Source: Helicobacteraceae bacterium
GTDB taxonomy: Bacteria > Campylobacterota > Campylobacteria > Campylobacterales > Sulfurimonadaceae
Length of the DNA: 64,000 nucleotides
Direction of reading: 5' to 3'
Assembly: GCA_947498025.1 (NCBI GenBank)
Contig: CANMJR010000013.1
Span: 1 to 64,000, forward strand
Numbering within the stretch: the stretch's first letter is position 1; the number at the start of each line of letters is the position of its first letter. The notes under the pieces are model-generated. The model was not told where the DNA came from. It saw only the letters and a program-made list of their open reading frames with translations, and did not search any database. Shown in pieces: positions 927-52,813 of the stretch. Position numbers and translations under genes: made by a program.

Positions 927-950
927 CAATAATTTCTTATGTGCTTATGA

Positions 951-956: not shown

Positions 957-1002
957 TCTCACAATCCATATCTATTGAAACAACGCTTTAATAAGGTTTA
1001 CA

Positions 1003-2109: not shown

Positions 2110-2133
2110 AACTGTTTCGTAAAAGGATAACAG

Positions 2134-3222: not shown

Positions 3223-4212
3223 GTCAATAAAACTTTGATCAATGCTTTTTTCTTCAGATATATATTTTGCCACATGTGGATAGATTTTTTTTGCAAAAGC
3301 ATCATACTCTTGATTGTTATACCATTTGCCGTTTGAGTGCAATCCACCGCTTACTTTATAAAATGCCCAACCTGCTCCTATGGCAGTAGCAGTTGATTCA
3401 TTGAAAATATTTTTTACTTTCCCAGTTGATGCATGTTTACTGTTTTTAAAATAACTCGTTATCTGTTCTTTGTTTTTATCATAAATCGTATGAGCAATTT
3501 CATGAAAAATAGTAGCGCTTAACAGCCAAGCTATATTTGATTTTGGTTTATTGACTAAGACTCCTATGGATTCTACATCTCCAAGCATAAAAGCGAGCGT
3601 TTTGTCTCCGTCCGGAATCGGATAGAGTACCAAGTATATTTTATCGATATTATTTTTTTTGACGCCATAAAAATGAGCAGCTTTTACGATTAGCTGATCA
3701 TAATCGGCACTCTCCATGGCTTTTTTTATCTCTTGGCTCTTAAGTTTTAATTTCTGCTCATTTGAGTTCCAAATTAACTCCTCATAAATAGGCAAAAAAT
3801 ATTTAAGCATTTCAAAATAGGTATATGTACTGTTATCATCCACGCTATTTTTATAAGAAATTGAAATCTTTTTCAATTCATCCAAATTTTCAGCTACTAC
3901 ACTTTCTATTTTTATCATATTGTAAAAATTGATATTTTTTTTGTATTCATATACTCTTTTAGTTTTTATAGAATCGTAACTTTTAGTAAGTTCAAATAAT
4001 TTTTCTTGTGAAAGTTTATTGTTGCCATATTTTTGATTGTAGATATTTTGAAAAGATTTTAAAGAGTAGGGGGTTTTCATAATTGATTCGCCAAAACTGA
4101 TTAAACCATGCAATTTACTGATTTTAATCTCTACATACTCACTTGCGGATAGGTTAAAAAATTGTAAAAGAAATAGAAATAAAAAAATTATTTTTTTCAA
4201 ACTACTACTCAT
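3202..4212 (-). CDS. Secreted zinc metalloprotease-like protein (HExxH)
   Basis: 336 residues with an N-terminal signal peptide ('KKIIFLFLFLLQFFNLSAS'). 'ATIFHEIAHTIYD' at about residues 234-246 contains the HExxH zinc motif, and a later 'NESTATAIGAGW' could supply the third ligand Glu, as in gluzincins. I cannot place it in a named peptidase family. It sits between the HD-kinase gene (tail-to-tail, overlapping ends) and the type I secretion operon, reading in the same direction as that operon. A periplasmic or extracellular peptidase acting on envelope or adhesin substrates is possible, but unlike LapG it has no Cys-His-Asp signature. Confidence 0.6.
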   Translation of the reverse strand: MSSSLKKIIFLFLFLLQFFNLSASEYVEIKISKLHGLISFGESIMKTPYSLKSFQNIYNQKYGNNKLSQEKLFELTKSYDSIKTKRVYEYKKNINFYNMIKIESVVAENLDELKKISISYKNSVDDNSTYTYFEMLKYFLPIYEELIWNSNEQKLKLKSQEIKKAMESADYDQLIVKAAHFYGVKKNNIDKIYLVLYPIPDGDKTLAFMLGDVESIGVLVNKPKSNIAWLLSATIFHEIAHTIYDKNKEQITSYFKNSKHASTGKVKNIFNESTATAIGAGWAFYKVSGGLHSNGKWYNNQEYDAFAKKIYPHVAKYISEEKSIDQSFIDSIIELY

Positions 4213-4285
4213 AGTTCACAAATAAGATTTTAGAAATTAATGACTTATGCATACTATCATTTCTTGTAGCTTCAAAGTAATATGA

Positions 4286-4891
4286 TTATTTTAACAAAAG
4301 TACGAGTGACACTCTGTCGTTAACATGCAGCTTTGAAAAAATTGAGCCAACATGTGCTTTTACTGTTCTTGTAGTTATCTCAAGCGCCGAGGCAATTGCA
4401 TCGTTTGTGTAGCCTCCGAGAATCAGTTTTACAACTTCAATCTCTTTTGCAGTAAGTCTGTTGTTTAGGAGAGATTCTGACTCCTCTTTTAAGGGTTCAT
4501 CTTTTGAAATTTTAGAGAGAGCGGCTGTCAGTTCAGGGTAGGTCCATATTTTGTCATCCAAAATCGTTTGAAGCATCTGTATAAAGTGAACTGTGAGCAT
4601 TCTTGCATTTCCATAAGCCTTTACATTATGGGCAATAAGCATCTTCCCCGTTGCAATTTCAGGTTCTCTTTCCAAAATAATCATATTTTTTGGTACAGAG
4701 TTTGACGTAATCATTTTATTAATATCACCGGCAACACTATCGTAGTCGGCTATTAAAATGTAATCTGACAGCTCTGCTAGTACATTTTTTAGGGAGACTA
4801 AATCATAGCAGGTGATAGAGTGCTCTATATCATGTTTTACTCTCCACTCCTTAACTATCTCCATGTTCGCACTAAAAAATATAATTTCCAT
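4286..4891 (-). CDS. LuxR-family transcriptional regulator with receiver-like N-terminus
   Basis: The C-terminal ~60 residues are a LuxR/FixJ HTH: 'LTAKEIEVVKLILGGYTNDA' and 'ITTRTVKAHVGSIFSKLHV'. The N-terminal ~120 residues look like a divergent CheY-like domain with one candidate acceptor region 'YILIADYDS'; the usual N-terminal acidic pair is not seen. I use the ATG at 4891 (MEIIFF..) rather than the track start 4912 because GGAG lies 8 bases upstream of it and it falls directly after the stop of the upstream adaptor gene. That makes it the last gene of the type I secretion operon. CsgD/VpsT-like control of adhesin export is inference. Confidence 0.75.
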   Translation of the reverse strand: MEIIFFSANMEIVKEWRVKHDIEHSITCYDLVSLKNVLAELSDYILIADYDSVAGDINKMITSNSVPKNMIILEREPEIATGKMLIAHNVKAYGNARMLTVHFIQMLQTILDDKIWTYPELTAALSKISKDEPLKEESESLLNNRLTAKEIEVVKLILGGYTNDAIASALEITTRTVKAHVGSIFSKLHVNDRVSLVLLLK

Positions 4892-4892
4892 G

Positions 4893-6239
4893 TTATTTCT
4901 CCGTAAAGACATACTGCTTTGTTTTTAAGATAGGTTTTAGAATATACTGCATTACCGTTTTCTTGCCCGTAACTATATCAACACTCACCTGCATTCCTGG
5001 GATGATTTTAAGTGGCTTGTCCTCTGTGCCTAAATAACTTTTATCTGTCACAACATGTATAAGATAAAAGGTTTCCTCTTTTTTATCTGTAATAGTGTCC
5101 GGTGAAATAGATTCAACTCTTCCGGTAAGACCGCCATGAATATTAAAAGGGTAGGCCGAAACTTTTACCATAGCCTCTGCATCCGGATGGATAAATGCTA
5201 TGTCAGCGGGCTTTATTTTTATCTCTAAATAGAGTTTTTTACTAGAGGGAACAACCTCTACTAAGTCAGCACCGGGTTTGATGACACCGCCGACGGTATT
5301 TACATAAAGTTTTTGAATAATGCCTGAAACAGGCGACTTAACAACCGTTCTGTCAACTTGGTCGCTTAACTCCACCTGCTGAGTGCCAGTTCTTCCTAGT
5401 TCTGCTGTTACTTTGTTTAACTCCTCTTTAGCAGTGCTTATAAAGAGTTGTTTTGCTGCACTTCTATTGCCTTTGAACTCTTCTACTAGGGATGCTAAAC
5501 GAGGTAAAGAGAGTTTTGCAGCCTCAATATCATTTTCAATTGCACTCGCCTCTCTTTTGAGCTTTAAGAAGTCAACTTTTGATTTTACGCCCTGTGTTAC
5601 CATGGGTTCCGTCATGGCTATCTCTTCTGTTACAAACTCCAGAGATTTTTGTAGTGATGATATTCTGGCTCTTGCTTCTGTTAGTGCCTGTTTTTTTTGA
5701 CTTATCTGCTCCACAATTGAACCGTCTTTCGCTTCAAACTCAAGTTTATTTGAATCATAAAGCTTTTTTGCAAGGGAGAGTTGTTCGTTTAGCTCTTGGC
5801 TATCCGTTGGAACTATTACAAATTGAATATCATTTGCCTCTGCCTCAAGTCTCTGTCTTTGTGCTTCTAGCTCTTCATACTTCATCTGATTTGTAAGAGA
5901 GGTTGACACAGATTTAGCATTGCTGATTTTTAATATATCCTGCCCCGCTTCAACTCTTTCTCCTTCGTTTACAAGGATTGCTTCAACTATTCCACCCTCA
6001 AGGTTCTGAATAACTTGGTTTTTTCCATAGGGAACGACCTCTCCGTCCCCCTTTGTAATCTCATCAATCTCTGCAAAAGATGCCCATATAATAGATACAA
6101 AAATAGTAATAAGCCAAATTTTTATAACTCTGCTTGTTTTAGAAGGGGTAACTTGCAAAATAGCCGCACTTAGGCTATTCATAAATTCATAGTCTTTTTC
6201 AGTATATTCTAATGGTTTTGGTTTGTCAACTTTCTTCAA
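4893..6239 (-). CDS. lapC: Type I secretion membrane-fusion adaptor, HlyD/LapC family
   Basis: 448 residues. One N-terminal membrane helix ('IWLITIFVSIIWASF', near 43-57), then the biotinyl-lipoyl-like half 'GDGEVVPYGKNQVIQNLEGG', a long coiled-coil hairpin (about 110-270), the second lipoyl half 'VVKSPVSGIIQKLYVNTVGG' and a C-terminal beta-barrel with 'IIPGMQVSVDIVTGKKTV', a HlyD-family hallmark. It would bridge the inner-membrane ABC transporter to the TolC-type channel. Its start overlaps the end of the ABC transporter gene by 14 bases, showing translational coupling. Confidence 0.92.
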   Translation of the reverse strand: MKKVDKPKPLEYTEKDYEFMNSLSAAILQVTPSKTSRVIKIWLITIFVSIIWASFAEIDEITKGDGEVVPYGKNQVIQNLEGGIVEAILVNEGERVEAGQDILKISNAKSVSTSLTNQMKYEELEAQRQRLEAEANDIQFVIVPTDSQELNEQLSLAKKLYDSNKLEFEAKDGSIVEQISQKKQALTEARARISSLQKSLEFVTEEIAMTEPMVTQGVKSKVDFLKLKREASAIENDIEAAKLSLPRLASLVEEFKGNRSAAKQLFISTAKEELNKVTAELGRTGTQQVELSDQVDRTVVKSPVSGIIQKLYVNTVGGVIKPGADLVEVVPSSKKLYLEIKIKPADIAFIHPDAEAMVKVSAYPFNIHGGLTGRVESISPDTITDKKEETFYLIHVVTDKSYLGTEDKPLKIIPGMQVSVDIVTGKKTVMQYILKPILKTKQYVFTEK

Positions 6240-8397
6240 TTTTTTTGCCGCCGCTTTGTAATTTTTTGAGTGCTATATCTTTTTGAGCATCAATGAAAAC
6301 TTTTCCTTCATTCATAACTATGATTCTTGTGACAATTTTTAGCAGATTCATTTTTTGCGTTACTAATAGAGCAGTTTTTCCTTTCAAATTTTCACCCAAG
6401 CTGTCAATAAGTCTAGACTCCGATAACTGATCCATGGCATTGCTAGGCTCATCCATGAGCATAATAGGAGAGTCAAGTAAAAATGCACGAGCAATCCCGA
6501 TACTCTGTTTCTGACCGCCGGATAATCCCTGTCCTCTCTCGCCTATCGGCATTTCATACCCTTTGGGATGTTTTTTTACAAACTCAGAGGTTCCGCTGAT
6601 AATGGATGCTCTTAGCATGTCACTATCAGAACAGTGTGAAGCACGGTAGGTAATATTATCTTTCACAGTTCCGCGAAAGAGCATAATGTCTTGAGAAACA
6701 TAACCGATATTTTTTCGAAGATCCGCAGGGTCGATTTGGTTGATATCTATGCCATCTATTAAAATTTGTCCTGAGTCCGGCTCATAAAGTCCTAGAATAA
6801 GCTTTTGAATCGTACTCTTTCCTGAGCCGATGCGACCGATTATCGCTACATGCTCTCCCGGCTCTATCGTGAACGAGACATTTTTTAGTATCTGAAACCC
6901 TGTTTTTGGGTATGCAAATGTTACATCTATAAACTCGATTCTGCCGCTGAAATCCGGTCTTTTTACAAATTTTTTGCCGGCAGGTCTCTCGCTCGGTTGA
7001 GATAATATGTCGTTTATAGCGGAATAGGATGCTTTTGTGTTCTCATAATTGGTAAGTATTCCGGCAACTTGTCCCATAGGTCCAAGCACCCTCCCTGTTA
7101 AAATATTAATAGCTATTAAAGCACCCATAGAAAGCTCAAAGGCTTGAATGAGATAAACCCCATAAACTATTATCATAACTGTGTTTAATTGAATCAAAAA
7201 TTGAGTAATTGTCGGAATAGAAACGGATAACAGGCGAGTGGACATGCTTTTTGTAGCTATTTCACCGGTTGACTCTTCCCATTTCCACTGCGCCTGGTTG
7301 AGAGTACCAAGAGTTTTGAGTGTTTCAATATTGTTGAGTGTTTCAATTAAAATAGAACTTTTTATAGCACTTGCTTCTTTCGTATTGTCTATGCTGGCTC
7401 TTAATGGCTTTTTTATAAATATTGCGTAACCTATAATTAAAAACATAGTTACTAAAGGAATAGCAACTATCGAGCCACCGATATACCAAATAATAACTAA
7501 GAATATAACTGCGAATGGAAGGTCAATTATAGCGGCCATTGTAGCATTTGTTAAAAAGCTTCTTATATTATCAAAATCTCTTAAGTGATTAGAAAATGCA
7601 CCTACGGATGTTGGAATGTGTGACATTTTTAAGTCAAGTACTTTTTCAAAAATAATGGATGCCATGATAACATCACTCTTTTTTGCGGCACTCTCTAGTA
7701 AGTTGGTTCTTGTAAATTTTAAAAATGTATCAATAATATAGATAATAATAATACCGATTGAAAATACCCAAAGTGTTTCTATCGCATTATTTGGAACAAC
7801 CCTGTCGTAAATATTCATAGTAAAGAGAGGAGAAGCAACAATAAAAAGGTTTATTAGGAGAGATGCATATAAAACATCTTTATAAATGCCCAATGACAAT
7901 TTTAGAGTACTCCAAAACCAATGTTTCTGGTCTAAATGAAGAGATCTTGTGTTGTCATCTACATGTTCAAAAGCTTTTTTTATCATAAAGCCAAAGCCGA
8001 TATACTCATCTTTTAGTATATCTATATCAACCCACTGTTCAACAGCATCTTCAGTCGGCATGATTATTTTAGCTTCTTGCCCATCATCACTAAATCTATC
8101 GAGAATGCATGAGCCTTGATTGGAGAGTAGAATTATCATAGGGAGTTGGAGCGGAGAGATTTGTTCAAGAGGTCTTCTTAAGATGCTCGATTTTAGTCCG
8201 GCTCTTTCAGCTGCACGAGAGAAGAGACCTTTTGCATTATTTATTGAAAATAGCTCAGGCGTTTCTCTTCCCACCTCTATAGGTAACCCCGCAGTTAAAG
8301 CCTCTGCGGAGAATGGTTTATGATAAAGTTTTGTAAATAGAACCAAGCAGTCAAGCAAGGAGTCTATTTTCAAATTATCAACTCTTGTTACAAACAT
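6226..8397 (-). CDS. lapB: Type I secretion ABC transporter with C39-like domain (LapB/RtxB type)
   Basis: 723 residues. The first ~130 residues form a C39 peptidase-like domain without the catalytic cysteine, as in exporters of uncleaved RTX and adhesin substrates. Membrane helices occupy about 165-430. The nucleotide-binding domain has Walker A 'IIGRIGSGKST', signature 'LSGGQKQSIGIARA' and Walker B 'PIMLMDEPSNAMD'. Length and domain order match the LapB family. It is the ATP-driven inner-membrane motor of the secretion system and overlaps the adaptor gene. The likely cargo is the adhesin ending at 881. Confidence 0.93.
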   Translation of the reverse strand: MFVTRVDNLKIDSLLDCLVLFTKLYHKPFSAEALTAGLPIEVGRETPELFSINNAKGLFSRAAERAGLKSSILRRPLEQISPLQLPMIILLSNQGSCILDRFSDDGQEAKIIMPTEDAVEQWVDIDILKDEYIGFGFMIKKAFEHVDDNTRSLHLDQKHWFWSTLKLSLGIYKDVLYASLLINLFIVASPLFTMNIYDRVVPNNAIETLWVFSIGIIIIYIIDTFLKFTRTNLLESAAKKSDVIMASIIFEKVLDLKMSHIPTSVGAFSNHLRDFDNIRSFLTNATMAAIIDLPFAVIFLVIIWYIGGSIVAIPLVTMFLIIGYAIFIKKPLRASIDNTKEASAIKSSILIETLNNIETLKTLGTLNQAQWKWEESTGEIATKSMSTRLLSVSIPTITQFLIQLNTVMIIVYGVYLIQAFELSMGALIAINILTGRVLGPMGQVAGILTNYENTKASYSAINDILSQPSERPAGKKFVKRPDFSGRIEFIDVTFAYPKTGFQILKNVSFTIEPGEHVAIIGRIGSGKSTIQKLILGLYEPDSGQILIDGIDINQIDPADLRKNIGYVSQDIMLFRGTVKDNITYRASHCSDSDMLRASIISGTSEFVKKHPKGYEMPIGERGQGLSGGQKQSIGIARAFLLDSPIMLMDEPSNAMDQLSESRLIDSLGENLKGKTALLVTQKMNLLKIVTRIIVMNEGKVFIDAQKDIALKKLQSGGKKIEES

Positions 8398-8434
8398 ATC
8401 TTACCTCTAATATTTTACTTTTTATACAAATCAT

Positions 8435-10282
8435 TTAGTTATTTGCCGCATTCGTACTAGGCATCTTAAGTTTTCTTACAGCTATATCTACTCTGTTATT
8501 TAACTCAAGACCTTCGTTTTCAAATAGACTGTTTGTAAACATAGGCGCTTTGTTTGACTGCGCATGAACCGTTATATTTTCCTCTTTTGCTCCGGCTTCT
8601 ATTAGCTTTTCTTTAACTACGCTGGCTCTTTGCGCAGAGAGGAGAAGCATTTTTGCTTCATTCAGATTCTCATCGTCAACATTTCCGAAAACTTCAAATT
8701 TCATATTATCAAAGCCATACGGTTTAATCTGATCAATTAAATCATTAAGTTTCTTCTGACCTTTGTGAGTTAAGTCAGCATCTCTTGTTCCAAATAAAAA
8801 TCCGCTGTATCTCTCAATTTTCAGAGTATCATCATAGGTAAGCTCACATCCATAAGTGCTTCTCATTTTGTAGGTGAGTGAGTTGTTACATATATCCTGC
8901 TCATCAACAATTAAATCTTTATCCCCGTCAAGCATTATAGGGAGAGCATCGTTGTTTGAAGGGGCGTCCCCTTTTAATCCTACCTTTTCATACTCTATAT
9001 CTTCGCTGCCGATTACTGAGGGTACAAGTGTACCGAGAGCATCTAATATTCGGTACTTAGCAAAAAGAGCACTATACTCCGTATTGATAATTTGTGATTT
9101 TGAATTACTAAAATCACTCTGAGCAGACAGAAGATCCAAAAGTGTGCGGCGCCCCAAGTCATACTCTTTTTTATAAAGGGTAAGTGTTTTTTCCGAAAAT
9201 TCTCTATACCTCTGAAGGTGAACCATCTGTTGATTTAACTTTTCATAAGCTGCCCATGCTAAATTCAGATCTTCTATTGTATTGCGTCTAAGTTTATTTT
9301 TTATTTGAACTTCTTTATGAACTTCGCTTACACTTTTTTGTAGGGCTGCGGTATCGGCAAAACCGTTAAATAGATTGTATGAAAGATACGCCATTGCTCT
9401 GAAAGCATCACTCTCTCCTTCGGTTGCACTTAAATTTTTACTCATAGATTGGGACACTTCAACATCTACTTTAGGATAAAAAGGCGCCTTACTTTTATGA
9501 TTTGTCGCTTCTGCTAATCCAATATTGTATTTACTAACCAACAGGGACGGATTGTTTTGCATTGCAAATTGTGCTGCATCTTCAACTGTCTGGGGAAATC
9601 TAATCTCTTCGGTCGGTTTTTCCATACTTTCAATATCAAGATATCTTCCTAAAACAGCGTGCATGTTATATGTGACATCAAGGAGTGTATTCTCTTGAAC
9701 CACATAGTTTGATTTTGCCAACGCCAAAGATGACTCAATTTTATTTACCTCAGAGAGAGTTGTTAATCCGGAATCGTAGAGCTTTTGAACTTTAGCAATA
9801 ATCTCTTCGTTTATATCAATAGTTTCTTTAGCATTATCAAGTAACTCTCTTTGTCTTAGCACCTGCAAATAGGTATTTACCATGGCAAAAGAGATAGCAT
9901 TTACCTGTTCTATATATTTGTAGGCGGCGGAGAGAGTTCTATTTTCATTCTCTTTAATCTGATATGTAGTCTCAAACCCTTTAAAAATATTTTGCGTATA
10001 TTTTAAAGAGTTGTTATACACATTGTAATCAAAAGATTGATTTGCTACCCCAAGAGGACGATTATTCCTCTCTGTATGCTCATATCCAACACCAACCGAT
10101 ACATCGAGCTTTGGATAGTAGCCGGCCTGAGCAATCGTTACATCCTCTTTTGTAGAGTTGTAGTTTTTTAGCTGCTCCAAGATGGTTGGGTTTGTTGATA
10201 AAACTTCTTCTACAGTGGTTTTAAGATTTTGTGCATTAAGCAGCGTGCATAAAGATAAAGATAATAATATTTTTTTGTTCAT
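8435..10282 (-). CDS. TolC-family outer-membrane channel fused to a C-terminal OmpA-like domain
   Basis: 615 residues, much longer than a usual TolC (about 430-490). A signal peptide ('KILLSLSLCTLLNA') is followed by two outer-membrane-factor repeats (about 20-425), including 'AQAGYYPKLDVSVGVGYEH' and 'GRRTLLDLLSAQSDFSNSK'. Then comes a short Asp-rich TSP3/Ca-binding-like piece 'LDGDKDLIVDEQDIC' near 447-461. The last ~115 residues are OmpA-like ('GQKKLNDLIDQIKPYGF', 'SAQRASVVKEKLIEAG', 'LNNRVDIAV'). The fusion suggests a secretion channel that also grips peptidoglycan. It precedes lapB in the operon and is preceded by another TSP3-OmpA gene 21 bases away. Confidence 0.9.
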   Translation of the reverse strand: MNKKILLSLSLCTLLNAQNLKTTVEEVLSTNPTILEQLKNYNSTKEDVTIAQAGYYPKLDVSVGVGYEHTERNNRPLGVANQSFDYNVYNNSLKYTQNIFKGFETTYQIKENENRTLSAAYKYIEQVNAISFAMVNTYLQVLRQRELLDNAKETIDINEEIIAKVQKLYDSGLTTLSEVNKIESSLALAKSNYVVQENTLLDVTYNMHAVLGRYLDIESMEKPTEEIRFPQTVEDAAQFAMQNNPSLLVSKYNIGLAEATNHKSKAPFYPKVDVEVSQSMSKNLSATEGESDAFRAMAYLSYNLFNGFADTAALQKSVSEVHKEVQIKNKLRRNTIEDLNLAWAAYEKLNQQMVHLQRYREFSEKTLTLYKKEYDLGRRTLLDLLSAQSDFSNSKSQIINTEYSALFAKYRILDALGTLVPSVIGSEDIEYEKVGLKGDAPSNNDALPIMLDGDKDLIVDEQDICNNSLTYKMRSTYGCELTYDDTLKIERYSGFLFGTRDADLTHKGQKKLNDLIDQIKPYGFDNMKFEVFGNVDDENLNEAKMLLLSAQRASVVKEKLIEAGAKEENITVHAQSNKAPMFTNSLFENEGLELNNRVDIAVRKLKMPSTNAANN

Positions 10283-26110: not shown

Positions 26111-27325
26111 ATGAATAAAAATATCTACTATTTAGGATTTGTCAGCCTCTTTACCGATTTAGCTTCAGCGATGATAACTCCTATTCTGCCGATTTACATT
26201 GTTTATGTTCTGCATGACTCCATTGACAAACTCGGTGTTGTCGTTGCCATGGCTACCTTTGTATCCTACTTCTTTAGAATACTCTTTGGGTACCTGAGCG
26301 ACAAATATCAAATTACAAAACCCTTTATTCTAGTTGGTTATCTCCTCTCCGCCATCACAAAACCGCTTTTTGCTTTTTCATCTTCCTTCGCGAATATCGC
26401 CATTTTACAGTCCACTGAGCGATTAGGCAAAGCAATACGAAGCGCCCCAAAAGATACATTAATCTCCTACTATGCCAAAGAAAACGAGAGCGGAAAAACT
26501 TTTGGATTTCATAAAACAATGGATATTGCAGGGGAACTCTTCGGTGCAACCCTGATTTTTCTTATATTCTATTTGTATGGCGACAGCGTAGAGGTGTTCA
26601 AAAATATATTTTTACTCACTTTTATCCCCAGTTTGCTCGGTGTTTTAATCGTCTGGTTTTTGGTAGAGGATTCAGTGCCAAAAAAAGGAGCTGTGAAATA
26701 TGAGTTTCAAAAGGCGGATTACAAACTTTTCCCTCTTTTGTTTAGCTACTTCTTCTTTATTTTCTTTATATTCAGTGATGCTTTTTTCATAATTATTGCA
26801 AAAGAGAGCGGCTATATCACGGTTTTTATTCCGCTATTTGTGATAGTTTTGACACTTACCCAAACGCTTTGCAGCTACTGTTTTGGTGTGATGAATGATA
26901 AAAAAAGCAGTGCATTTGTGCTCAAACTCTCTTACCTTTTCGGTATTTTCTCCATTGTGGCACTCATGTTCAATCTTTTATGGATAGGATTTATATTTTT
27001 GGGAATATTCACAGTCGCTTCGCTCAACGCGACAAGAAGCTACATCTCGGCAAATGCAATAAACAAAGCATCAATATACGGTATATTTTATGCAGGTATC
27101 GCACTTTTCAGCTCACTCGGCGCATTAAGTATCGGCTATATTTGGCACTATTTCGGGCAGAGTCATGCCCTCTATTTTTCACTCATCGGGATGATGATTG
27201 TATTTATAATTTCACTGCTAAAAATTGATAAGAAAAGGGATGGAACTTTAGCCCAATTAAAACATATCTATTTTCAAATGAAATTTGGAAATGAGAAAAG
27301 TGGAGATTCATTCTCAAGGGTGTAG
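26111..27325 (+). CDS. Major facilitator superfamily transporter
   Basis: 404 residues with about 12 hydrophobic segments. The cytoplasmic loop motif after helix 2 reads 'FRILFGYLSDKYQITKP', an MFS motif A, and 'ERLGKAIRSAPKDTLISYYA' follows helix 4. Substrate unknown. The last residues (KSGDSFSRV) are encoded by copy 1 of a short dispersed repeat, so the C-terminal tail appears to be acquired sequence. Confidence 0.85.
   Translation: MNKNIYYLGFVSLFTDLASAMITPILPIYIVYVLHDSIDKLGVVVAMATFVSYFFRILFGYLSDKYQITKPFILVGYLLSAITKPLFAFSSSFANIAILQSTERLGKAIRSAPKDTLISYYAKENESGKTFGFHKTMDIAGELFGATLIFLIFYLYGDSVEVFKNIFLLTFIPSLLGVLIVWFLVEDSVPKKGAVKYEFQKADYKLFPLLFSYFFFIFFIFSDAFFIIIAKESGYITVFIPLFVIVLTLTQTLCSYCFGVMNDKKSSAFVLKLSYLFGIFSIVALMFNLLWIGFIFLGIFTVASLNATRSYISANAINKASIYGIFYAGIALFSSLGALSIGYIWHYFGQSHALYFSLIGMMIVFIISLLKIDKKRDGTLAQLKHIYFQMKFGNEKSGDSFSRV
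27296..27323 (+). repeat. Short dispersed repeat, copy 1
   Basis: AAAAGTGGAGATTCATTCTC followed by AAGGGTGT. Lies at the 3' end of the MFS gene, in frame. Shares the core AAGTGGAGATTYATTYWCAR with three other copies at 28.2, 29.1 and 30.2 kb. Confidence 0.8.
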
Positions 27326-27344
27326 ATACTAATGGAGATTTTAA

Positions 27345-28327: not shown

Positions 28328-28630
28328 ATGACAAAGATTCAAATTTTAGAGTATCTCAAAAGCAAAAAAGAAGAACTTTATAAAAAATATGGCGTTATAT
28401 CTTTGGGTTTGTATGGAAGTTATGCGAGAGATGAAGCTACTCAAAATAGCGATGTTGATATATTTTACGAAAGAGACAGCGGTTTTGAGCTAGAAAGCGG
28501 ATTAGAGTTTTTAAGTATTGATAAACAACTGGCAGATGATTTGCATGTCTCAAAAGTGGATTTTGTCTCACTCTCTTTTATGAACCCCATCATAAAGCAC
28601 TATGCAAAAAAAGATTTTATTTATGTATGA
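28328..28630 (+). CDS. mntA: MntA-type nucleotidyltransferase antitoxin
   Basis: 100 residues. 'LGLYGSYARDEATQNSDVDI' has the GSx10DxD signature of minimal nucleotidyltransferases. In MntA/HepT systems MntA inactivates the RNase by adding AMP to a tyrosine next to the catalytic motif. Overlaps hepT by 4 bases. Confidence 0.88.
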   Translation: MTKIQILEYLKSKKEELYKKYGVISLGLYGSYARDEATQNSDVDIFYERDSGFELESGLEFLSIDKQLADDLHVSKVDFVSLSFMNPIIKHYAKKDFIYV

Positions 28631-29049
28631 TGCAAAGAATCTCATCTATATCTTTAACCATGTTGGAGTGCATAGAAAAAACTTGGATTTATACAGAGGA
28701 GTTTAAAAATCCGAGTGATTTTATTTGGGCAAATGAGCAAAAAGAGTTAAATGCAACTATCTCACTTTTTATAGCCATCGGTGAAGAAGCTAAAAAAATT
28801 GACGAATCCTTAAAAGAGGCGGTAAGTTGTGATTTATCTTGGAGAGATATAGCAGGTCTTAGAGACAAAATCTCACATGATTACAGAGGTGTAGATGCCG
28901 ATATATTGTGGGCTGTAATTTATAAAGACCTACAAAAATTAAAAACAACTTTGATAGAAATGACCAATAAAATAAATCCTCCCAAAGAACTACTAAAAGA
29001 GTTTTTAGCAACCCCGCATTATAAGCACATTCAATATTTGATTTTTTAG
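28627..29049 (+). CDS. hepT: HepT-type RNase toxin (DUF86/HEPN)
   Basis: 140 residues. 'IAGLRDKISHDYRGVDADIL' contains the Rx4H motif (RDKISH) followed by the Tyr that MntA enzymes AMPylate in studied systems. 'FIAIGEEAKKIDESLKEAV' is the typical preceding helix. Belongs to the DUF86/HepT family. Directly coupled to mntA. The gene pair is bounded by copies 2 and 3 of the dispersed repeat. Confidence 0.9.
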   Translation: MMQRISSISLTMLECIEKTWIYTEEFKNPSDFIWANEQKELNATISLFIAIGEEAKKIDESLKEAVSCDLSWRDIAGLRDKISHDYRGVDADILWAVIYKDLQKLKTTLIEMTNKINPPKELLKEFLATPHYKHIQYLIF

Positions 29050-29057
29050 AAATTTAA

Positions 29058-29085
29058 AAAAGTGGAGATTCATTCACAGGGGTGT
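29058..29085 (+). repeat. Short dispersed repeat, copy 3
   Basis: AAAAGTGGAGATTCATTCAC followed by AGGGGTGT, 8 bases after the hepT stop codon. Closest in sequence to copy 1. Confidence 0.8.
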
Positions 29086-43061: not shown

Positions 43062-43595
43062 ATGGGAAGAAGCAGATATAAAATCTATGAAACGACACAT
43101 CCGCATTTTGTAACTTGCACGATACTTCATTGGTTGCCTCTTTTTACACGACAAGAAAGTGTTCAAATAATTCTAGATTGTCTGAAGTTTTTACAAGAAA
43201 AAGATAATCTAAAACTCTATGCTTATGTGATTTTGGAAAATCATTTGCACATGGTTATTTCTAGTGATGATTTACATAAAACTATGCAATCTTTTAAACA
43301 ATACACCGCAAAACAACTTCTTGAACTACTGAAAAAAGAGAATGTAACAACTCTTTTAGAGCAACTCGCTTTTTATAAAAAAGCACATCATCAAGAGAAA
43401 AGTTATCAAGTGTGGGAAGAGGGATACCAACCTAAATTGATTCAAGATGAGGCAATGATGAAAATTAAAGTGGATTATATTCATAACAATCCTGTAAAAA
43501 GAGGTTATGTGGATGAAGATATTCATTGGCGATATAGCAGTGCGAGAGATTATAATGGTATGATTGGGTTAATTGAAATTGAGAGATTATGGTGA
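43062..43595 (+). CDS. REP-associated tyrosine transposase (RAYT, IS200-like Y1 family)
   Basis: 177 residues. Begins MGRSRYKIYETTHPHFVTCT, typical of RAYTs, with the HUH motif in 'LENHLHMVISS' (HLH), the candidate catalytic Tyr in 'QSFKQYTAKQLLELL' and the family end 'KVDYIHNNPVKRGYVDEDIHWRYSSA'. RAYTs are single-copy enzymes that cut single-stranded REP hairpins rather than moving as classical insertion sequences. Elements d and e flank the gene in inverted orientation, so enzyme and substrates are together here. Confidence 0.93.
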   Translation: MGRSRYKIYETTHPHFVTCTILHWLPLFTRQESVQIILDCLKFLQEKDNLKLYAYVILENHLHMVISSDDLHKTMQSFKQYTAKQLLELLKKENVTTLLEQLAFYKKAHHQEKSYQVWEEGYQPKLIQDEAMMKIKVDYIHNNPVKRGYVDEDIHWRYSSARDYNGMIGLIEIERLW

Positions 43596-45020: not shown

Positions 45021-45550
45021 AAACTGTTATTATCGGGGTAGGAAGTATATTGTTTCAAGATGAGGGCGTTGGTGTTTATGCCTCAAAATATCTTGATAAG
45101 AACTACACATTCAGCGGCGATGTGACGCTGGTTGACGGTGGCGTTTTAGGATTTCACTTAATTGGGTACTATCTTGATTACGATAAGGTTTTGATACTAG
45201 ATACCATAACCATGGATGATGTGGCAGGTTCCATCTACAATCTCCCCGACAGAGAGCTTTTGGGGCTTGGGAGTTACAAGCAGAGCGTACATGAGGTGGA
45301 GGTTGTCGAGATGTTGGAGATAGCTTCGCTTCATGAGAAGAGCGCCGAGGTAAATGTTATCGGCATTGTCCCGGAAGATATTAAAAACATAAATATAGGG
45401 TTGAGCGATGTGATTGTGGCAAGATTTGATGCTTTTATTGACGCAGCTTTAGATGCGCTTGAACATTTTGGTGTAAAATATACAAAAAACACAACCGAGT
45501 TCTCGCTTGAGAGTGTAATAGAGAGTTACAGGAATCCACAGAATGATTAG
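45017..45550 (+). CDS. hyaD: [NiFe]-hydrogenase maturation endopeptidase (HyaD/HupD family)
   Basis: 177 residues. 'VIIGVGSILFQDEGVGVYAS' matches the family GxGNxLxxDxGxG signature with the Ni-binding acidic residue; 'LILDTITMDD' gives the second acidic ligand and 'YKQSVHEVEVVEMLEIA' the His. It cleaves the C-terminal tail of the hydrogenase large subunit after Ni insertion. Overlaps hypF by 8 bases. Confidence 0.93.
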   Translation: MKTVIIGVGSILFQDEGVGVYASKYLDKNYTFSGDVTLVDGGVLGFHLIGYYLDYDKVLILDTITMDDVAGSIYNLPDRELLGLGSYKQSVHEVEVVEMLEIASLHEKSAEVNVIGIVPEDIKNINIGLSDVIVARFDAFIDAALDALEHFGVKYTKNTTEFSLESVIESYRNPQND

Positions 45551-47774
45551 AAAAAGCTTTCTTATTTATGGAGTTGTTCAGGGCGTTGGATTTCGCCCTT
45601 TTATTTATAAGATAGCATGCAAAAATAAACTTTGCGGATTTGTGAAAAATGATAGTGAGGGAGTGGAGTTAGAAGTTGAAGGGTCTGAAGAGAATATAAA
45701 GATATTTGAAGAGCAACTCCACGCACAGCTCCCGCCACTTGCAAGAATTGACACAATCAAAACCAAAGAGTTAGAACCGCTTTATGAAAAAAGTTTTGAG
45801 ATTAGAGAGAGTTCAATTTACGCAAATAATGCAAAAACGGCTCTCATTTCACCCGACATTGCAACATGTCACGAGTGTTTGGAAGATAAAAAAAAAGAGG
45901 GCAAATACCACAACTATTTTGCCACAAACTGCACAAACTGCGGACCGAGATACAGTATTATAAAAACTGTACCCTACGACAGAAGTAACACTTCGATGGA
46001 TAAATTTGCGATGTGCGAATCTTGTCTTGAAGAGTATAAAAATCCACTCAGCAGAAGATACCATGCCCAGCCCATCTCTTGCAACAGTTGCGGGCCAAAA
46101 TTATCTCTTTGGCATGCCCAGAGTAAAACAGCAATAGATGAAACCGATATTTTTAAAAAGGTTGCCGACTTTATTGAGAGTGGCAAAATTGTAGCAATAA
46201 AAGGGATTGGCGGATTTCATATAGTTTGTGATGCCTCAAACGATGCGGTGATTTTAAAGCTAAGAGAGTTCAAAAACAGACCGACAAAACCATTGGCAAT
46301 CATGTGTAAAGATAGTGTGCAGATAAAATCTTTGGCGTGCGTGAATGAGAAAGAGGAGGAGTTGCTTACTTCAAAAGAAGCGCCGATAGTAATTTTGAAA
46401 AAAAGCCTGTTTTCCTATGTAAAACTATCGAAGTTTTTGGCTCCAAATATAGATAGAATAGGGTGTATGTTAGCCTATACACCGCTTCATCATCTATTAT
46501 TTCAATATTTAAATACTCCAATAGTTGCCACAAGCGCGAACTTGGGAGATGAGCCTATCCTAACCAAAATGGAGGATATATTCAGTAAGTTGCCGTTTAT
46601 TGATTTTGTTTTGGATTTTAATAGAGAGATAATAAATGGGGTGGATGACTCTCTGCTTCAAGTCGTGAACGGGAAAACTCAGACGCTCCGCCTTTCTCGC
46701 GGATACGCTCCGAAGGTGATAAAACTCCCATTTAAGAGTGAGAAAAAAATTCTCGCAGTCGGTGCAAATGCTAAAAACTCCATAGCTTTTGTGATGGGCA
46801 ACAATCTTATTCTCTCCCCGCATATCGGCGATTTAGACAGCCTGAAAGCCTTTGAGTATTTTGAACGCACAATAGAGACTTTCAAAAGGTTCTACGACTT
46901 TGAACCGGACATTATCGTGCATGACAAACACCCAAATTACGAAACAACAAAATGGGCGAAAAAGCAAAACAAGGAACTTGTAGAAGTCGGTCACCACTTA
47001 GCACACATCTATGCATGTAAGGCTGAATTTGGGTTGAGCGGTGATTACTTAGGTTTTAGTTTTGACGGTACAGGGTTTGGGGATGGTAAGATTCTTTGGG
47101 GCGGAGAGATTTTTGTGGGGGATGAGAGAAAATATCATTTCAAACCTATAAAACTTTTAGGCGGTGAAAAAGCGATAAAAGAGCCGAGACGCGTGGCGCT
47201 GAGCATGCTTTTTGATGCACTGAGTTTAGAAGAGGTGCAAGAGCTTGATTTGGCATGCGTAAAAGAGTTTTCACCTGAGAACTTAAAACTCCTGCACCAA
47301 AGCCACACAAAAAATTTAAACGCACCGCAAAGCTCGTCTGTCGGCAGAATGTTTGATGCTATCGTTTCATTTTCAGACATCGCTCAAACCATAAGTTACG
47401 AGGGGGAAAGTGGACTTTTATGTGAGAGCTACTATGATGAAAATAGAACTAGAAGTTTCAATTACGCCATAACGGATGGTGTTATAGATATGAAAATAGT
47501 CGAGTTTATTTTAAACAATAAGTTTGATAAAAAAGAGCTCAATAGCATGTTTATAAATACTCTGGTAGAAATTATAATAAGTATCTCAAAAAAAGAAAAA
47601 CTAAAAGTGATTCTCAGCGGTGGGGTGTTTCAGAACAAAACTCTGCTAGAACTCGCGGCATGTGGACTTGAAAAAGAAAATATCTCGTACTTTTTTCAAC
47701 AGCAAACAGCCATTAATGATGGTGGAATAGCCCTTGGGCAGGCATATTTTTGCGTGAAAAACAATATAGGATAA
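45543..47774 (+). CDS. hypF: Carbamoyltransferase HypF
   Basis: 743 residues, full length. N-terminal acylphosphatase domain 'YGVVQGVGFRPFIYKIACKN'; two zinc fingers beginning 'CHECLEDKKKEGKYHNYFAT' and 'CESCLEEYKNPLSRRYHAQP'; YrdC-like domain with 'KGIGGFHIVCDASND'; Kae1-like C-terminal domain with 'VGHHLAHIYACKAEFG' and 'GFSFDGTGFGDGKILWGGEI'. Converts carbamoyl phosphate to the thiocarbamate on HypE, source of the CN ligands. Ends 'INDGGIALGQAYFCVKNNIG'; a second copy of this end lies 570 bases downstream. Confidence 0.97.
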   Translation: MIRKSFLIYGVVQGVGFRPFIYKIACKNKLCGFVKNDSEGVELEVEGSEENIKIFEEQLHAQLPPLARIDTIKTKELEPLYEKSFEIRESSIYANNAKTALISPDIATCHECLEDKKKEGKYHNYFATNCTNCGPRYSIIKTVPYDRSNTSMDKFAMCESCLEEYKNPLSRRYHAQPISCNSCGPKLSLWHAQSKTAIDETDIFKKVADFIESGKIVAIKGIGGFHIVCDASNDAVILKLREFKNRPTKPLAIMCKDSVQIKSLACVNEKEEELLTSKEAPIVILKKSLFSYVKLSKFLAPNIDRIGCMLAYTPLHHLLFQYLNTPIVATSANLGDEPILTKMEDIFSKLPFIDFVLDFNREIINGVDDSLLQVVNGKTQTLRLSRGYAPKVIKLPFKSEKKILAVGANAKNSIAFVMGNNLILSPHIGDLDSLKAFEYFERTIETFKRFYDFEPDIIVHDKHPNYETTKWAKKQNKELVEVGHHLAHIYACKAEFGLSGDYLGFSFDGTGFGDGKILWGGEIFVGDERKYHFKPIKLLGGEKAIKEPRRVALSMLFDALSLEEVQELDLACVKEFSPENLKLLHQSHTKNLNAPQSSSVGRMFDAIVSFSDIAQTISYEGESGLLCESYYDENRTRSFNYAITDGVIDMKIVEFILNNKFDKKELNSMFINTLVEIIISISKKEKLKVILSGGVFQNKTLLELAACGLEKENISYFFQQQTAINDGGIALGQAYFCVKNNIG

Positions 47775-47786
47775 GAGAAGAGAAAG

Positions 47787-48347
47787 ATGTTTGATAAATT
47801 TATGATTTATATTAAAAGAATGAATGGGTTTGAGAAAAGTCCGCCACGAAAGCCTTTTTCAAAAATTCTTTGGTCATGGCTGGGTGCATTTTTAGGTATT
47901 TATTTAATTTCAATTTTAAATGACAGTATTCACTCCAATGTAATAGATAAGATTTTTCTGATTGGCTCATTTGGTGCATCGGCAGTATTGATATACGGTG
48001 CACCGCAAGTGGAGTTTTCTCAACCTCGGAATGTTTTAGGAGGACATGTTTTATCAGCGTTAGTAGGTGTAACGGTTTATAAATTTTTACCTTTTGATCC
48101 TTCTGTCTTAAGTGCTATTGCTGTCTCAATGGCTATTGTAGTTATGCATTTTACAGGTACTCTTCATCCGCCGGGCGGGGCTACTTCATTAATCGCAGTC
48201 ATCGGAAGTTCTCAAATACATGACATTGGATATACATTTGTTCTTCTTCCGGTCGCACTAGATGCCTTCGTGATGCTGCTTGTTGCATTACTTGTTAATA
48301 ATTTATCAAAAAATCCAAAGAGGCACTATCCGCGTTATTGGTTCTAA
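47787..48347 (+). CDS. HPP-family integral membrane protein
   Basis: 186 residues with four hydrophobic segments and the family motif in 'FTGTLHPPGGATSLIAVIGS'. HPP proteins have been linked to nitrite transport in plants and cyanobacteria; in bacteria the role is open. It starts 12 bases after hypF and ends exactly at a remnant of a second hypF end, so it seems to have been brought in by recombination at hypF. Confidence 0.88.
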   Translation: MFDKFMIYIKRMNGFEKSPPRKPFSKILWSWLGAFLGIYLISILNDSIHSNVIDKIFLIGSFGASAVLIYGAPQVEFSQPRNVLGGHVLSALVGVTVYKFLPFDPSVLSAIAVSMAIVVMHFTGTLHPPGGATSLIAVIGSSQIHDIGYTFVLLPVALDAFVMLLVALLVNNLSKNPKRHYPRYWF

Positions 48348-48403
48348 ATGACGGCGGAATAGCTTTGGGACAGATTTATTACGCTTTTTTTCATAAATTT
48401 TAA
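48344..48403 (+). pseudogene. Remnant of a second hypF 3' end
   Basis: The frame starting at 48344 reads LNDGGIALGQIYYAFFHKF and a stop. NDGGIALGQ is identical to the end of the intact HypF (47713-47750 region), the C-terminal signature of the Kae1-like domain; the rest differs. Overlaps the HPP stop codon by 4 bases. Interpreted as the original hypF terminus stranded after HPP was inserted or exchanged. Confidence 0.85.
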
Positions 48404-48413
48404 ATCTGTTTGA

Positions 48414-48419
48414 TATAAT
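48414..48419 (+). promoter_or_regulatory. -10 box of LPP20-like gene
   Basis: TATAAT directly after the hypF remnant, 27 bases before the GTG start at 48447. Confidence 0.5.
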
Positions 48420-48446
48420 TCCAATATTATATCAAAGGAATTTATA

Positions 48447-49112
48447 GTGATAAATGTAAAAAAAGTTTTTAATATTGCAGCTTTAGGTGTTTTTCTCGCT
48501 CTGTTTGGTGGGTGTGCAAGTCCCGTTACCAATCCACAGGTGAAATCGGAGTGTATGCAAGAGGGTGTTGGTGCACCGTCTTGGGTTTGTAAGCCACAGG
48601 TCATGAATGGGTATTCGAGCTTGGGAATAGCAGAAAACTATAAAGCTAACCCAGCTCAAACAATACATGAGGCTCTTAATAACGGCCGCACCGAGATTGC
48701 AAAACAGATACAATTGCAAGTAAAAGATAAAATCAATAATTTTTCCCGTGTAACTGAAATAAGCAGTAAAGAAAAGGTTGATAATCTTTATGCATCCATC
48801 GCAGAGGAAGTGAAGCCCATGAATATAACTCTTGAAAAAGAGATGAAATCTTGGATTTCTCCTTCGGGTAAATTGTATGTGCATGTCATAGCTCCAAAAT
48901 CAACTTCTGATGAAGAGATTAAAACAGCAGTTAAAACAAGCTATGCAAATGACAGGGTTACATGGCTCAGTTTTAAATCCAAAGAAGCATTGAATAATCT
49001 TGAAAAAGAGTTTGGTGTAACGATGCCAATACAGCAGCAGGTAACTGTGGCAGAAATGTTTCGGACAGAAAAGGTGACACAAAGCTCGGTAGGACGCAAT
49101 AGAAAAAAATAG
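48447..49112 (+). CDS. LPP20-family lipoprotein
   Basis: 221 residues from GTG with AAAGGA 8 bases upstream. Lipobox 'LALFGGC' (Cys23). 'PSWVCKPQVMNGYSSLGIAE' and 'AQTIHEALNNGRTEIAKQIQ' follow the LPP20 pattern (small Ala/Lys-rich helix after 'GxA'). Outer-membrane lipoprotein; the function is unknown. Independent promoter, so unlikely to be part of the hyp operon. Confidence 0.82.
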   Translation: MINVKKVFNIAALGVFLALFGGCASPVTNPQVKSECMQEGVGAPSWVCKPQVMNGYSSLGIAENYKANPAQTIHEALNNGRTEIAKQIQLQVKDKINNFSRVTEISSKEKVDNLYASIAEEVKPMNITLEKEMKSWISPSGKLYVHVIAPKSTSDEEIKTAVKTSYANDRVTWLSFKSKEALNNLEKEFGVTMPIQQQVTVAEMFRTEKVTQSSVGRNRKK

Positions 49113-49132: not shown

Positions 49133-49801
49133 TTAAAAATTTTGATATAAATTTATCAAAATTTTTTCCTGCAGAGACTCTTTATAATTAAACTTAAACT
49201 TAAACTCAATCTCTTTCAAATAATAGAAAAAATTCTCACCGCTCACACCCTTGTACTTCAGAATGGATTTCTCAAAAAAAAGCCAAAACTGCGTGATAAT
49301 ATTTTCTCTTTTTTTTGTTTTTGAGATTTTGTTAAACATCATAAATTTTGAGAACTCTTTGAAATAAATACTTTTCGACCCATTTTCTAAAAACTGGTTT
49401 TTGTATTTGTTCAGATTTGGCATAAGTATGTTATAAACTCTGCTTTCATAATGAAATGTTAAAAAATTCTGAGCATCAAAAATATTCTCTTTTACCTTCT
49501 TTTTACTTTTTTCCAGATAGATATATTCATCATATTCTAAAACTATTTTCTCTCTGTATTCATCCTCTAAATAGTTCGCAATTAATTGGCGAAAGAGCTT
49601 ATATCTACTTTTTACAGTCATATAATTTATGGCTAATTTTTTACTCGCTTGGTTAATTGTGAGGCTCTCACAAAAGCACTTTATAATCTCAACATCAGTT
49701 TTTATTTTTTTTGCAGAGAACTTTTTTTTGCATTTTGCACATTTGAGTTGTTCCGATTTGAGTTCATAGAGTTTTTCATGATTACAATAGATACATTTCA
49801 T
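49133..49801 (-). CDS. Zinc-ribbon/HTH protein, transposase-like N-terminus
   Basis: I start at 49801 (MKCIYCNHEK) because the zinc ribbon begins there; the track start at 49882 adds a hydrophobic stretch with no family support. 'CIYCNHEKLYELKSEQLKCA' plus 'KCKKKFSAKK' is a two-CxxC ribbon, followed by HTH-like 'LTINQASKKLAINYMTVKSR'. This resembles the N-terminus of IS1595-type transposases and some Campylobacterota regulators, but I see no DDE motif. The C-terminal 130 residues are aromatic- and Lys-rich. It splits the hyp genes in the opposite orientation. Confidence 0.55.
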   Translation of the reverse strand: MKCIYCNHEKLYELKSEQLKCAKCKKKFSAKKIKTDVEIIKCFCESLTINQASKKLAINYMTVKSRYKLFRQLIANYLEDEYREKIVLEYDEYIYLEKSKKKVKENIFDAQNFLTFHYESRVYNILMPNLNKYKNQFLENGSKSIYFKEFSKFMMFNKISKTKKRENIITQFWLFFEKSILKYKGVSGENFFYYLKEIEFKFKFNYKESLQEKILINLYQNF

Positions 49802-49913
49802 AAGGAATTTTATCACAAGTTGGTGCCAAAAGTAACTAAGAAATAGAAAAATTAATAATACTTTCACACTAAAGATATACAATTGTGAGAGTTATTAATA
49901 CGATGAGGGTAAG

Positions 49914-50555
49914 ATGGAAAACTTAGGATTGGTAATTATATTCTGGTACGGCGTTTTACATGCTTTTGGAGCTGACCACCTAACTGCAATTGCAGATTTT
50001 TCTATCGGTAAAAACAAAAAAAAGACTATGCTCATTACAACTCTGTTTGCAATAGGGCATGGATTATCTCTTTTTATATTTGCAAAAATTTTAGAGAGTT
50101 ATCATATAAGTGAAACTATTTTGGGTTATGGAGATACTATCTCTTCAACTGTAATACTCGGGATGGGAGTCTATCTTCTATTTATGGTTTTTACAGACCG
50201 AATTCAGTTAAAAAAGCATATTCACCACGGCGAGGAACATGTCCACATCTGGTTTGGCAAAGAGCATACCCACAACAACACCGACACAACTTCTGCATTC
50301 ACTATCGGCGCATTAATGGGTATAGGCGGAGTTCGCGGCATGCTTATAACTCTTGGTGCGATTGAAGGGCAGAGTGTTGATTTTATGATGGTTCTTGTTT
50401 TTACTCTCGGAGTGATGAGCATATTTGTGGGCTTTGGTGCTGTGATACTCTCTATTAATAAAAATCTACTAAACTCTAAACAAAATTTAAAAAAAGTTTT
50501 CGCAGCTGCAGGAATTGTATCGGTAGTTGTCGGCTCAAGTATGTTACTAAATTAA
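49914..50555 (+). CDS. Nickel/cobalt permease-like transporter (HX4DH family)
   Basis: 213 residues with about six hydrophobic segments. 'YGVLHAFGADHLTAIADFSI' holds the HX4DH metal-binding motif of the nickel-transport superfamily; 'FAIGHGLSLFIF' is the second conserved element, and a His-rich loop 'HHGEEHVHIWFGKEHTHNN' follows. It directly precedes hypB, so it most likely supplies Ni for hydrogenase maturation. Confidence 0.87.
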   Translation: MENLGLVIIFWYGVLHAFGADHLTAIADFSIGKNKKKTMLITTLFAIGHGLSLFIFAKILESYHISETILGYGDTISSTVILGMGVYLLFMVFTDRIQLKKHIHHGEEHVHIWFGKEHTHNNTDTTSAFTIGALMGIGGVRGMLITLGAIEGQSVDFMMVLVFTLGVMSIFVGFGAVILSINKNLLNSKQNLKKVFAAAGIVSVVVGSSMLLN

Positions 50556-50567: not shown

Positions 50568-51362
50568 ATGTGTAAAGATTGCGGTTGTAGTATAACAGGA
50601 CCTTCCCACGAAGAAAAGGCTCACTCCCATGAGCATCATGAAAAACATTCACATGAACACCACCATCATGGAGGTTCACATAAACATCTTCATGATAATC
50701 CTCAACTCAATGACCCTAAAACAATTTCGGTTATTACAAAGATTTTGGATAAAAATAACCAAGAAGCTGGGCACAATCGCGATCATTTTAACTCGCATGG
50801 AGTTTTGTGTATCAATCTTATGAGTAGTCCGGGAAGCGGAAAAACAGCTTTGCTTGAGGCTTTGTCAAAAATTGCAGAGTTTAAATTCGGTGTCATCGAG
50901 GGCGACTTAGAGACAAGCAAAGATGCTGACAGACTCACGGCATGTGGAATACAGGCACATCAGATTCAGACAGGTTCCGCATGTCACTTAGATGCCTTTA
51001 TGGTACACAAAGCACTGCACCATATGGATTTAGAAAACATGGATGTCTGTTTTATAGAGAATGTCGGAAACCTTGTTTGTCCGGCAAGTTATGATGTGGG
51101 AAGCCACCTCAATATTGTTCTTGTAAGTATTCCTGAGGGCGAAGACAAAATAGCGAAATATCCGGTTATGTTCCGACAGGCGGATTTGATTTTGTTTACG
51201 AAAACAGATTTGCTTCCCCATTTTGAGTACGACATGGAGAAAGAAAAAGAGATGGCAAGAAAACTCAAACCAAGTGTGGATATTTTAGAAGTAAGCACTA
51301 AAGATGAGGCATCTCTGAAAAAAGTAGCATCATGGATTAAGTTTAAAATGGAGATGAGATAA
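50568..51362 (+). CDS. hypB: Hydrogenase nickel-incorporation GTPase HypB
   Basis: 264 residues. N-terminal 'MCKDCGCSITG' is the high-affinity metal motif, followed by a His-rich stretch (~20-45) that can store Ni. G domain: 'LMSSPGSGKTALLEALSKIA' (P-loop), 'GVIEGDLETSKDADRL', 'CFIENVGNLVCPASYDVG' and 'LILFTKTDLLPHFEYD'. Delivers Ni with HypA. ATG of hypC overlaps its stop (TAATG). Confidence 0.97.
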   Translation: MCKDCGCSITGPSHEEKAHSHEHHEKHSHEHHHHGGSHKHLHDNPQLNDPKTISVITKILDKNNQEAGHNRDHFNSHGVLCINLMSSPGSGKTALLEALSKIAEFKFGVIEGDLETSKDADRLTACGIQAHQIQTGSACHLDAFMVHKALHHMDLENMDVCFIENVGNLVCPASYDVGSHLNIVLVSIPEGEDKIAKYPVMFRQADLILFTKTDLLPHFEYDMEKEKEMARKLKPSVDILEVSTKDEASLKKVASWIKFKMEMR

Positions 51363-51652: not shown

Positions 51653-52813
51653 ATGGAACTCGAACTTAAAAATCTTTATGACGATTTTAGAAATGCCAAC
51701 ACCATAAAAGCGTATGCAAAAATAATTAGAGAAGATGCTCTCAAACTTCCTCATCCGATAAATATAATGGAAGTGTGCGGAGGGCATACGCACACGATTA
51801 TGAAATACGGTATCCTCCAACTTCTGCCAGAAAATATAAAGTTTGTGCATGGTCCGGGTTGCCCGGTGTGCATCATGCCAAAAGAGCGGATTGACCATGC
51901 TTATGTTTTGGCGATGCAGAGAGATGTGATTTTGGTCACTTTAGGGGACATGATAAAAGTGCCGGGAAGCAACGGAAGCCTTCAAGATGCAAGAAGCAGA
52001 GGTGCGGATGTACGGTTTGTTTACTCTCCGCTAGATTGTCTAAAAATCGCCCATGAAAACCCACAAAAAAAAGTAATTTTCTTCGCCATAGGTTTTGAGA
52101 CCACAACCCCGATGACTGCCGCATTGCTAGATACCGTTGCAAAACAAAACAAGGTGAATGGCGAAGCCAGAGAAGGTGCCCTGGGGTATATAAAAAACAT
52201 CTTTTTTCATATAAACCATGTAACGGTTCCCGAAGCGATGGCGGCACTTATCTCAGACAAAGAGTGCAACATAGACGCATTTTTGGGACCTGCGCATGTG
52301 AGCGTGATTAGCGGAAGCAAGATTTACGAGGAGTTTCCACAGGATTTTAACAAGCCGGTTGTTGTCTCAGGATTTGAGCCTGTGGATGTCATGCAAAGTA
52401 TCAGCATGCTAGTAAAACAGTTTGCAGAGGGTAGATGTGCGCTTGAAGTGGAGTATAAAAGAGCCGTTACTCGCGATGGCAATTTAAAAGCACAAGCGTT
52501 GATAGAGAAGTACTTTGAAAAAGCGCAAAATTTCAGATGGAGAGGTCTTGGCGATATTCCTCAAAGCGGCTTAAAACTCAGAGCCGAATTTGATGGTTAC
52601 AATGCCGAAGTGATTTACAAAAATATTTTGCCGCATGAGCCAATCGACGACCACAAACTCTGCATCTGCGGAGATATACTCAAAGGCAAAGCAAACCCGC
52701 CGGAGTGCAAAATATTTGGTACTGCATGTAAGCCCACTAGTCCGATAGGAAGCTGCATGGTAAGCTCTGAGGGCGCATGTGCGGCGTATTATAAATATGG
52801 AAATCTATTGTAA
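51653..52813 (+). CDS. hypD: Hydrogenase Fe(CN)2CO assembly protein HypD
   Basis: 386 residues. Conserved cysteine motifs: 'IMEVCGGHTHTIMKYG', 'VHGPGCPVCIMPKERID', 'FAIGFETTTPMTAAL' and the [4Fe-4S]-binding end 'KLCICGDILKGKANPPECKI' with 'SPIGSCMVSSEGAC'. Scaffold on which the Fe(CN)2CO unit is assembled with HypC and HypE. Follows hypC by zero bases. Confidence 0.97.
   Translation: MELELKNLYDDFRNANTIKAYAKIIREDALKLPHPINIMEVCGGHTHTIMKYGILQLLPENIKFVHGPGCPVCIMPKERIDHAYVLAMQRDVILVTLGDMIKVPGSNGSLQDARSRGADVRFVYSPLDCLKIAHENPQKKVIFFAIGFETTTPMTAALLDTVAKQNKVNGEAREGALGYIKNIFFHINHVTVPEAMAALISDKECNIDAFLGPAHVSVISGSKIYEEFPQDFNKPVVVSGFEPVDVMQSISMLVKQFAEGRCALEVEYKRAVTRDGNLKAQALIEKYFEKAQNFRWRGLGDIPQSGLKLRAEFDGYNAEVIYKNILPHEPIDDHKLCICGDILKGKANPPECKIFGTACKPTSPIGSCMVSSEGACAAYYKYGNLL

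Follow-up and report, generated by a model that had tools for sequence, protein, structure and literature searches.

The DNA analysed here (the window, a stretch of 64,000 nucleotides) comes from a genome of 2.93 Mb in the Sulfurimonas lineage. It contains an intact hypF gene, followed by a gene for an HPP transmembrane protein, a short hypF-derived sequence that we call stub A, a lipoprotein gene, a putative regulator, a HupE-like gene and hypB, as listed below.

45543..47774, plus strand: hypF, intact, 743 aa (Pfam PF00708, PF07503, PF01300, PF17788, PF22521)
47715..47774, plus strand: present hypF terminus, type B, NDGGIALGQAYFCVKNNIG then stop, common to the sister genomes G069 and G095
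47787..48347, plus strand: HPP transmembrane protein gene (PF04982, E 5e-57), read here as inserted cargo
48344..48403, plus strand: stub A, stranded hypF terminus, LNDGGIALGQIYYAFFHKF then stop, overlapping the HPP stop
48345..48347, plus strand: junction, with the HPP stop TAA on hypF-derived sequence TAAATGAC (possible 3-4-nt microhomology)
48447..49112, plus strand: LPP20-like lipoprotein gene (PF02169 just below the cut-off), with stub A on its 5' side
49133..49882, minus strand: putative regulator, which in relatives without cargo directly abuts the hypF stop
49914..50555, plus strand: HupE/NiCoT-like membrane protein gene (no Pfam hit), right border of the slot
50568..51362, plus strand: hypB (PF02492)

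A Pfam search found acylphosphatase, two zinc-finger, YrdC and Kae1-like domains in HypF, whose C-terminal end is ...INDGGIALGQAYFCVKNNIG, with the stop at 47774. The names HupE and regulator were taken from gene context. An IS200-like (Y1-type) transposase gene lies upstream of the hyp cluster (43062-43595), and a palindrome, TTTGATATAAT-N6-ATTATATCAAA (48409-48436), overlaps the likely promoter of the lipoprotein gene and is partly kept in relatives.

Stub A reads CTA AAT GAC GGC GGA ATA GCT TTG GGA CAG ATT TAT TAC GCT TTT TTT CAT AAA TTT TAA from 48344 to 48403. Its reading frame differs from that of HPP, with which it shares the bases of the HPP stop TAA at 48345-48347; HPP orthologues elsewhere mostly end in TGG-codon-stop, the same way as HPP in the window. 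The original prediction had placed a second HypF terminus behind HPP, and this was borne out, with the intact gene ending separately at 47774. The interval it gave, 47713-48403, also takes in the HPP gene; the remnant proper is the roughly 20 codons at 48344-48403.

Could such a stub be a chance resemblance or an assembly artefact? The match is short, but the best alignment to hypF ends scored 59, against a maximum of 28 for shuffled sequences, and three genomes carry the layout, on contigs that are 6, 64 and 422 kb long. A hypF-end pattern gave two matches in the window genome, and a reversed-pattern control gave none over 135 genomes. We regard chance or artefact as so improbable that it can be set aside: the stub is a real, decaying leftover hypF end.

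The order hypF-HPP-stub-lipoprotein also occurs in the two sister genomes, on separate contigs. Read from the DNA, their stubs are LNEGGIAEGQIYYAFFHKF (G069) and LKEGGIALRQIHYAFFHNF (G095), with substitutions at the N, D and G of the motif, residues that almost all the intact hypF genes surveyed keep. Most of the genomes compared are metagenome assemblies; as the sisters have this layout in common and their stubs are mutated at conserved HypF residues, it does not reflect an assembly error. HPP is 93-96% identical among the three genomes; in G056 and other relatives, no HPP gene follows hypF. This identity, together with the same gene order in all three, makes the insertion older than the three species.

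From which hypF does the stub derive? We aligned it against 150-nt hypF ends, for which shuffle noise was ~28. It scored 59, 56, 55 and 55 against the ends of G047, G012, G106 and G108, and 55 against the end of a pseudo-hypF on contig C31 of the window genome (88% over 41 bp), compared with 27, 19 and 33 against the present hypF ends of the window genome (G000), G069 and G095. High scores against the hypF ends of other species, combined with a noise-level score against the adjacent hypF, rule out both a copy of the current end and a chance match. These comparisons show the remnant to be the end of a hypF from a lineage other than that of the present gene.

The C31 match speaks for a duplication within the genome followed by deletion, which would have reduced a second hypF copy to its final codons. 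In G128 and G140, described below, only the gene end occurs twice, on either side of the cargo, and nothing there points to a larger second hypF. No longer hypF remnant was found between HPP and the lipoprotein gene in the window genome, G069 or G095. Such a duplication would also leave the sharp junction at the HPP stop unexplained, and we think it very unlikely. Contig C31 itself holds a second hydrogenase accessory locus (61-8954), with genes for a NiFe-hydrogenase large-subunit-like protein, a HycI-like protease, a hypF-related 555-aa protein, a cytosine methyltransferase, an EcoO109I-type endonuclease and hypB; the decayed hypF pseudogene lies on its minus strand at about 4480-4860.

The same stub precedes lipoprotein orthologues far from any hypF (G080:C8 and G108:C50), and only its last part is kept before the lipoprotein gene in G043:C45. 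In a lipoprotein tree the copy of the three sister species (the trio) is sister to copies elsewhere that carry hypF-end sequence on their 5' flank, at 46-60% identity, and the linkage of stub and lipoprotein gene is therefore old. The window stub still reads perfectly despite this old linkage. Taken together, the simplest reading is that the stub belonged to a functional hypF until just before the three species split, and that the arrival of HPP then severed it; that it was intact until that time and is now decaying is supported. None of the genomes sampled had an intact hypF with the lipoprotein gene directly behind it, which counts against this order of events. In several species (G108, G043, G016) the LPP20-like lipoprotein gene adjoins a nifE-like gene.

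The converse order would have HPP already behind hypF, with a unit of hypF stub and lipoprotein gene inserted later between HPP and the regulator. The occurrence of stub and lipoprotein gene away from hypF counts for this order and against ours: they may have arrived as a unit behind HPP. In addition, G119 has a decayed B-type stub before HPP (contig C42; a weak match, 36 vs 34 for shuffles, but in register), so the adjacency of hypF and HPP may be old; G119 apart, no hypF stub preceded HPP in ten other orthologues inspected. However, erosion of the kind seen in G108 and G043 would be expected of a stub that had travelled for long, whereas that of the window is intact although its linkage to the lipoprotein gene is as old as ~55% protein identity. 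The in situ parallels below also have the stub as the recipient-side end. We consider this later arrival rather unlikely, and prefer HPP having been wedged in before the stub.

The original prediction also placed a left crossover inside hypF, making the gene a chimera. We built trees for four blocks of hypF (codons 1-175, 241-420, 421-600 and 601-743). In all four the trio grouped with or beside G119, G106, G056 and G105, some of it with low support; G092 joined these relatives in the last block, and HypB likewise grouped with G119. With no switch in affinity across the four blocks, a crossover in the gene body is not supported. It is possible that the crossover lies in the last ~50 hypF codons, a stretch too short for a tree test, or upstream of hypF. 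A small patch in the window genome (codons 691-720) is 89% identical to G119 vs 80% to the sisters; being younger than the three-species split, it was ruled out as a trace of the insertion. Elsewhere in hypF, in-frame inserts of ~24-36 residues occur in G069 (~codon 182), G095 (~codon 268) and G119 (~codon 290), and these (CAVSASEEVPLG repeats; MRLLHFVRNDKSRHCEALKKPW) look like translated repeat elements. A 39-bp sequence with the translation KVNGEARE(G/S)ALG, which resembles an in-frame inserted repeat, lies in frame in the hypD region (window 52151-52189) and also in hypF of G069, G095 and G108, with a second copy on contig C70.

The commonest simple arrangement in relatives has hypF and the regulator tail to tail, followed by hupE and hypB (G075, G021, G062, G032, G134 and, nearly, G074), and we read hypF abutting the regulator as the ancestral state. 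Across genomes the borders of this slot are conserved (hypF on one side; regulator, hupE and hypB on the other) and its content varies.

No content: several relatives
HPP and lipoprotein: window genome, G069, G095
MoxR-TgpA operon: G080
EcoO109I-type restriction endonuclease and cytosine methyltransferase: C31, with homologues in G092
AbiL-like pair: G025
PD-Lambda-1 defence gene: G128
Sulfatase-like gene and pseudouridine synthase: G103, G016, G127
PAS/antiporter-like genes: other relatives

Severed hypF ends were found in place behind other cargo as well, independently in G128, G080 and G140. In G128, hypF is followed by a 2.7-kb insert with PD-Lambda-1 and then by 92 bp of hypF end, 96.7% identical. 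G080 has hypF, three genes (MoxR-TgpA) and a stub just before the regulator. Among 399 genomes of the order, scanned for the pattern, at least one further in situ case was found, in another family (G140: hypF, ~0.5 kb, stub, then hupE-hypB), and a displaced stub lies before a cytosine methyltransferase gene in G103:C82. The duplications, about 57-92 bp long, are always of the gene end. The stub starts at seven junctions lie 49-92 nt upstream of the hypF stop, at positions that are not identical; G084 keeps a longer hypF fragment. Thus, the slot between hypF and hupE/hypB appears to be a recurrent insertion hot spot rather than the site of a single event.

As a control, about 780 genes in ~860 kb of G128, G069 and the window were tested for 3'-end duplication. 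These other genes yielded tandem paralogues, one short repeat that was not terminal and one dispersed repeat, but no comparable terminal duplication around cargo; as the test detects only fairly recent events, this is a lower bound for other genes. A candidate second scar in the window (gene at 26111-27325, repeat at 29044) was ruled out as a dispersed genus-wide repeat. This sequence, GTGGAGATTCATTCACAGGGGTGT (27290-27330 and 29044-29085), is present in 57/135 genomes of the genus, with as many as 20 copies; in the window it makes up the end of an MFS gene. Behind a MipA gene, at 28328-29049, lies a pair encoding an MNT nucleotidyltransferase and a HepT-like protein, a probable toxin-antitoxin system.

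How did the cargo enter? None of the stub-flanked inserts examined contains an integrase or transposase; the IS-like transposase of G128 lies beyond the stub, and none of the best PF00589 matches listed lies beside hypF. A transposon target-site duplication was ruled out, as the repeats measure about 57-92 bp and are not repeats of a few bp accompanied by terminal repeats.

Some integrative elements use the 3' ends of genes (tRNA genes, icd, guaA). Similarly, site-specific elements that bring a replacement gene end with them could attach at the end of hypF, and the stubs would then be attR sites. As at those sites, the incoming DNA here restores the gene end on the left and the old end stays at the far border; the stub starts cluster, and the cargo includes defence genes. 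In contrast to such elements, the hypF inserts examined contain no integrase, and their cargo is one to three genes. Direct repeats are present, and their starts vary between 49 and 92 nt from the stop. Viral contigs yielded no hypF-end site, the three that matched the pattern doing so coincidentally, inside unrelated proteins, and nothing relevant was found in the literature on hypF as an integration site. We consider attachment of this kind improbable. It is also doubtful that the last ~60-90 bp of hypF are a specific acquisition site, where small cargo, anti-phage genes among it, is repeatedly put in place by a trans-acting recombinase or by targeted recombination, each time with a new hypF end.

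The concept of the minimal mobile element is reportedly that of Saunders and Snyder in 2002. PMC8627216, which quotes the definition, describes such an element as an integrase-free slot between conserved genes. The hypF slot resembles it in that two conserved genes flank variable content, including restriction-modification genes, with no transfer machinery; no mobility gene was present in the inserts examined. It differs in that a severed end of the flanking gene remains beside several of the inserts, and in that the slot was compared between species, not strains. The slot is most likely of this general kind, with cargo that may be transferred by transformation and homologous recombination.

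We conclude that stub A is probably an old hypF terminus that was severed at a recurrent insertion site. In the ancestor of the three species, a working hypF with an end of type A would have had the lipoprotein gene immediately behind it. DNA with a type-B hypF end and HPP would then have integrated at hypF; the B end would have taken over as the functional terminus, leaving the former A end as a stub of ~57 nt, which is now decaying. This retains the proposal that an incoming hypF 3' end and HPP left the old terminus as a scar, in keeping with the foreign-lineage terminus and the in situ parallels, and drops the crossover in the hypF body.

Both homology-facilitated illegitimate recombination (HFIR) and single-crossover integration have been described as routes (PMC3240628). 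Homologous recombination in hypF on the left, if the far side was joined illegitimately or by a single crossover, would account for a new end on the left and the old end on the right, and we put forward this RecA-type route tentatively, at slightly less than even chances. HFIR likewise has one homologous and one microhomology side and small inserts of ~1 kb, and a single crossover duplicates the homologous segment. At the HPP stop, the TAA/TAAATG overlap would fit the HFIR microhomology of 3-10 bp, but it is short. However, HFIR usually removes DNA of the recipient; that the end of the recipient gene has survived here counts against this route, and for these uncultured bacteria both competence and mechanism are putative. 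The clustering of stub starts, tighter than a random join would give, also counts against it, with the longer fragment in G084 as a qualification.

The hot spot adjoins hydrogenase maturation genes in Campylobacterota and carries phage-defence genes, an association that we did not find in the literature searched. The stub is a readable molecular fossil of the addition of a gene to a core operon without mobile-element machinery. With such stubs, unlike with plain minimal mobile elements, the order of insertions and their junctions can be read directly.
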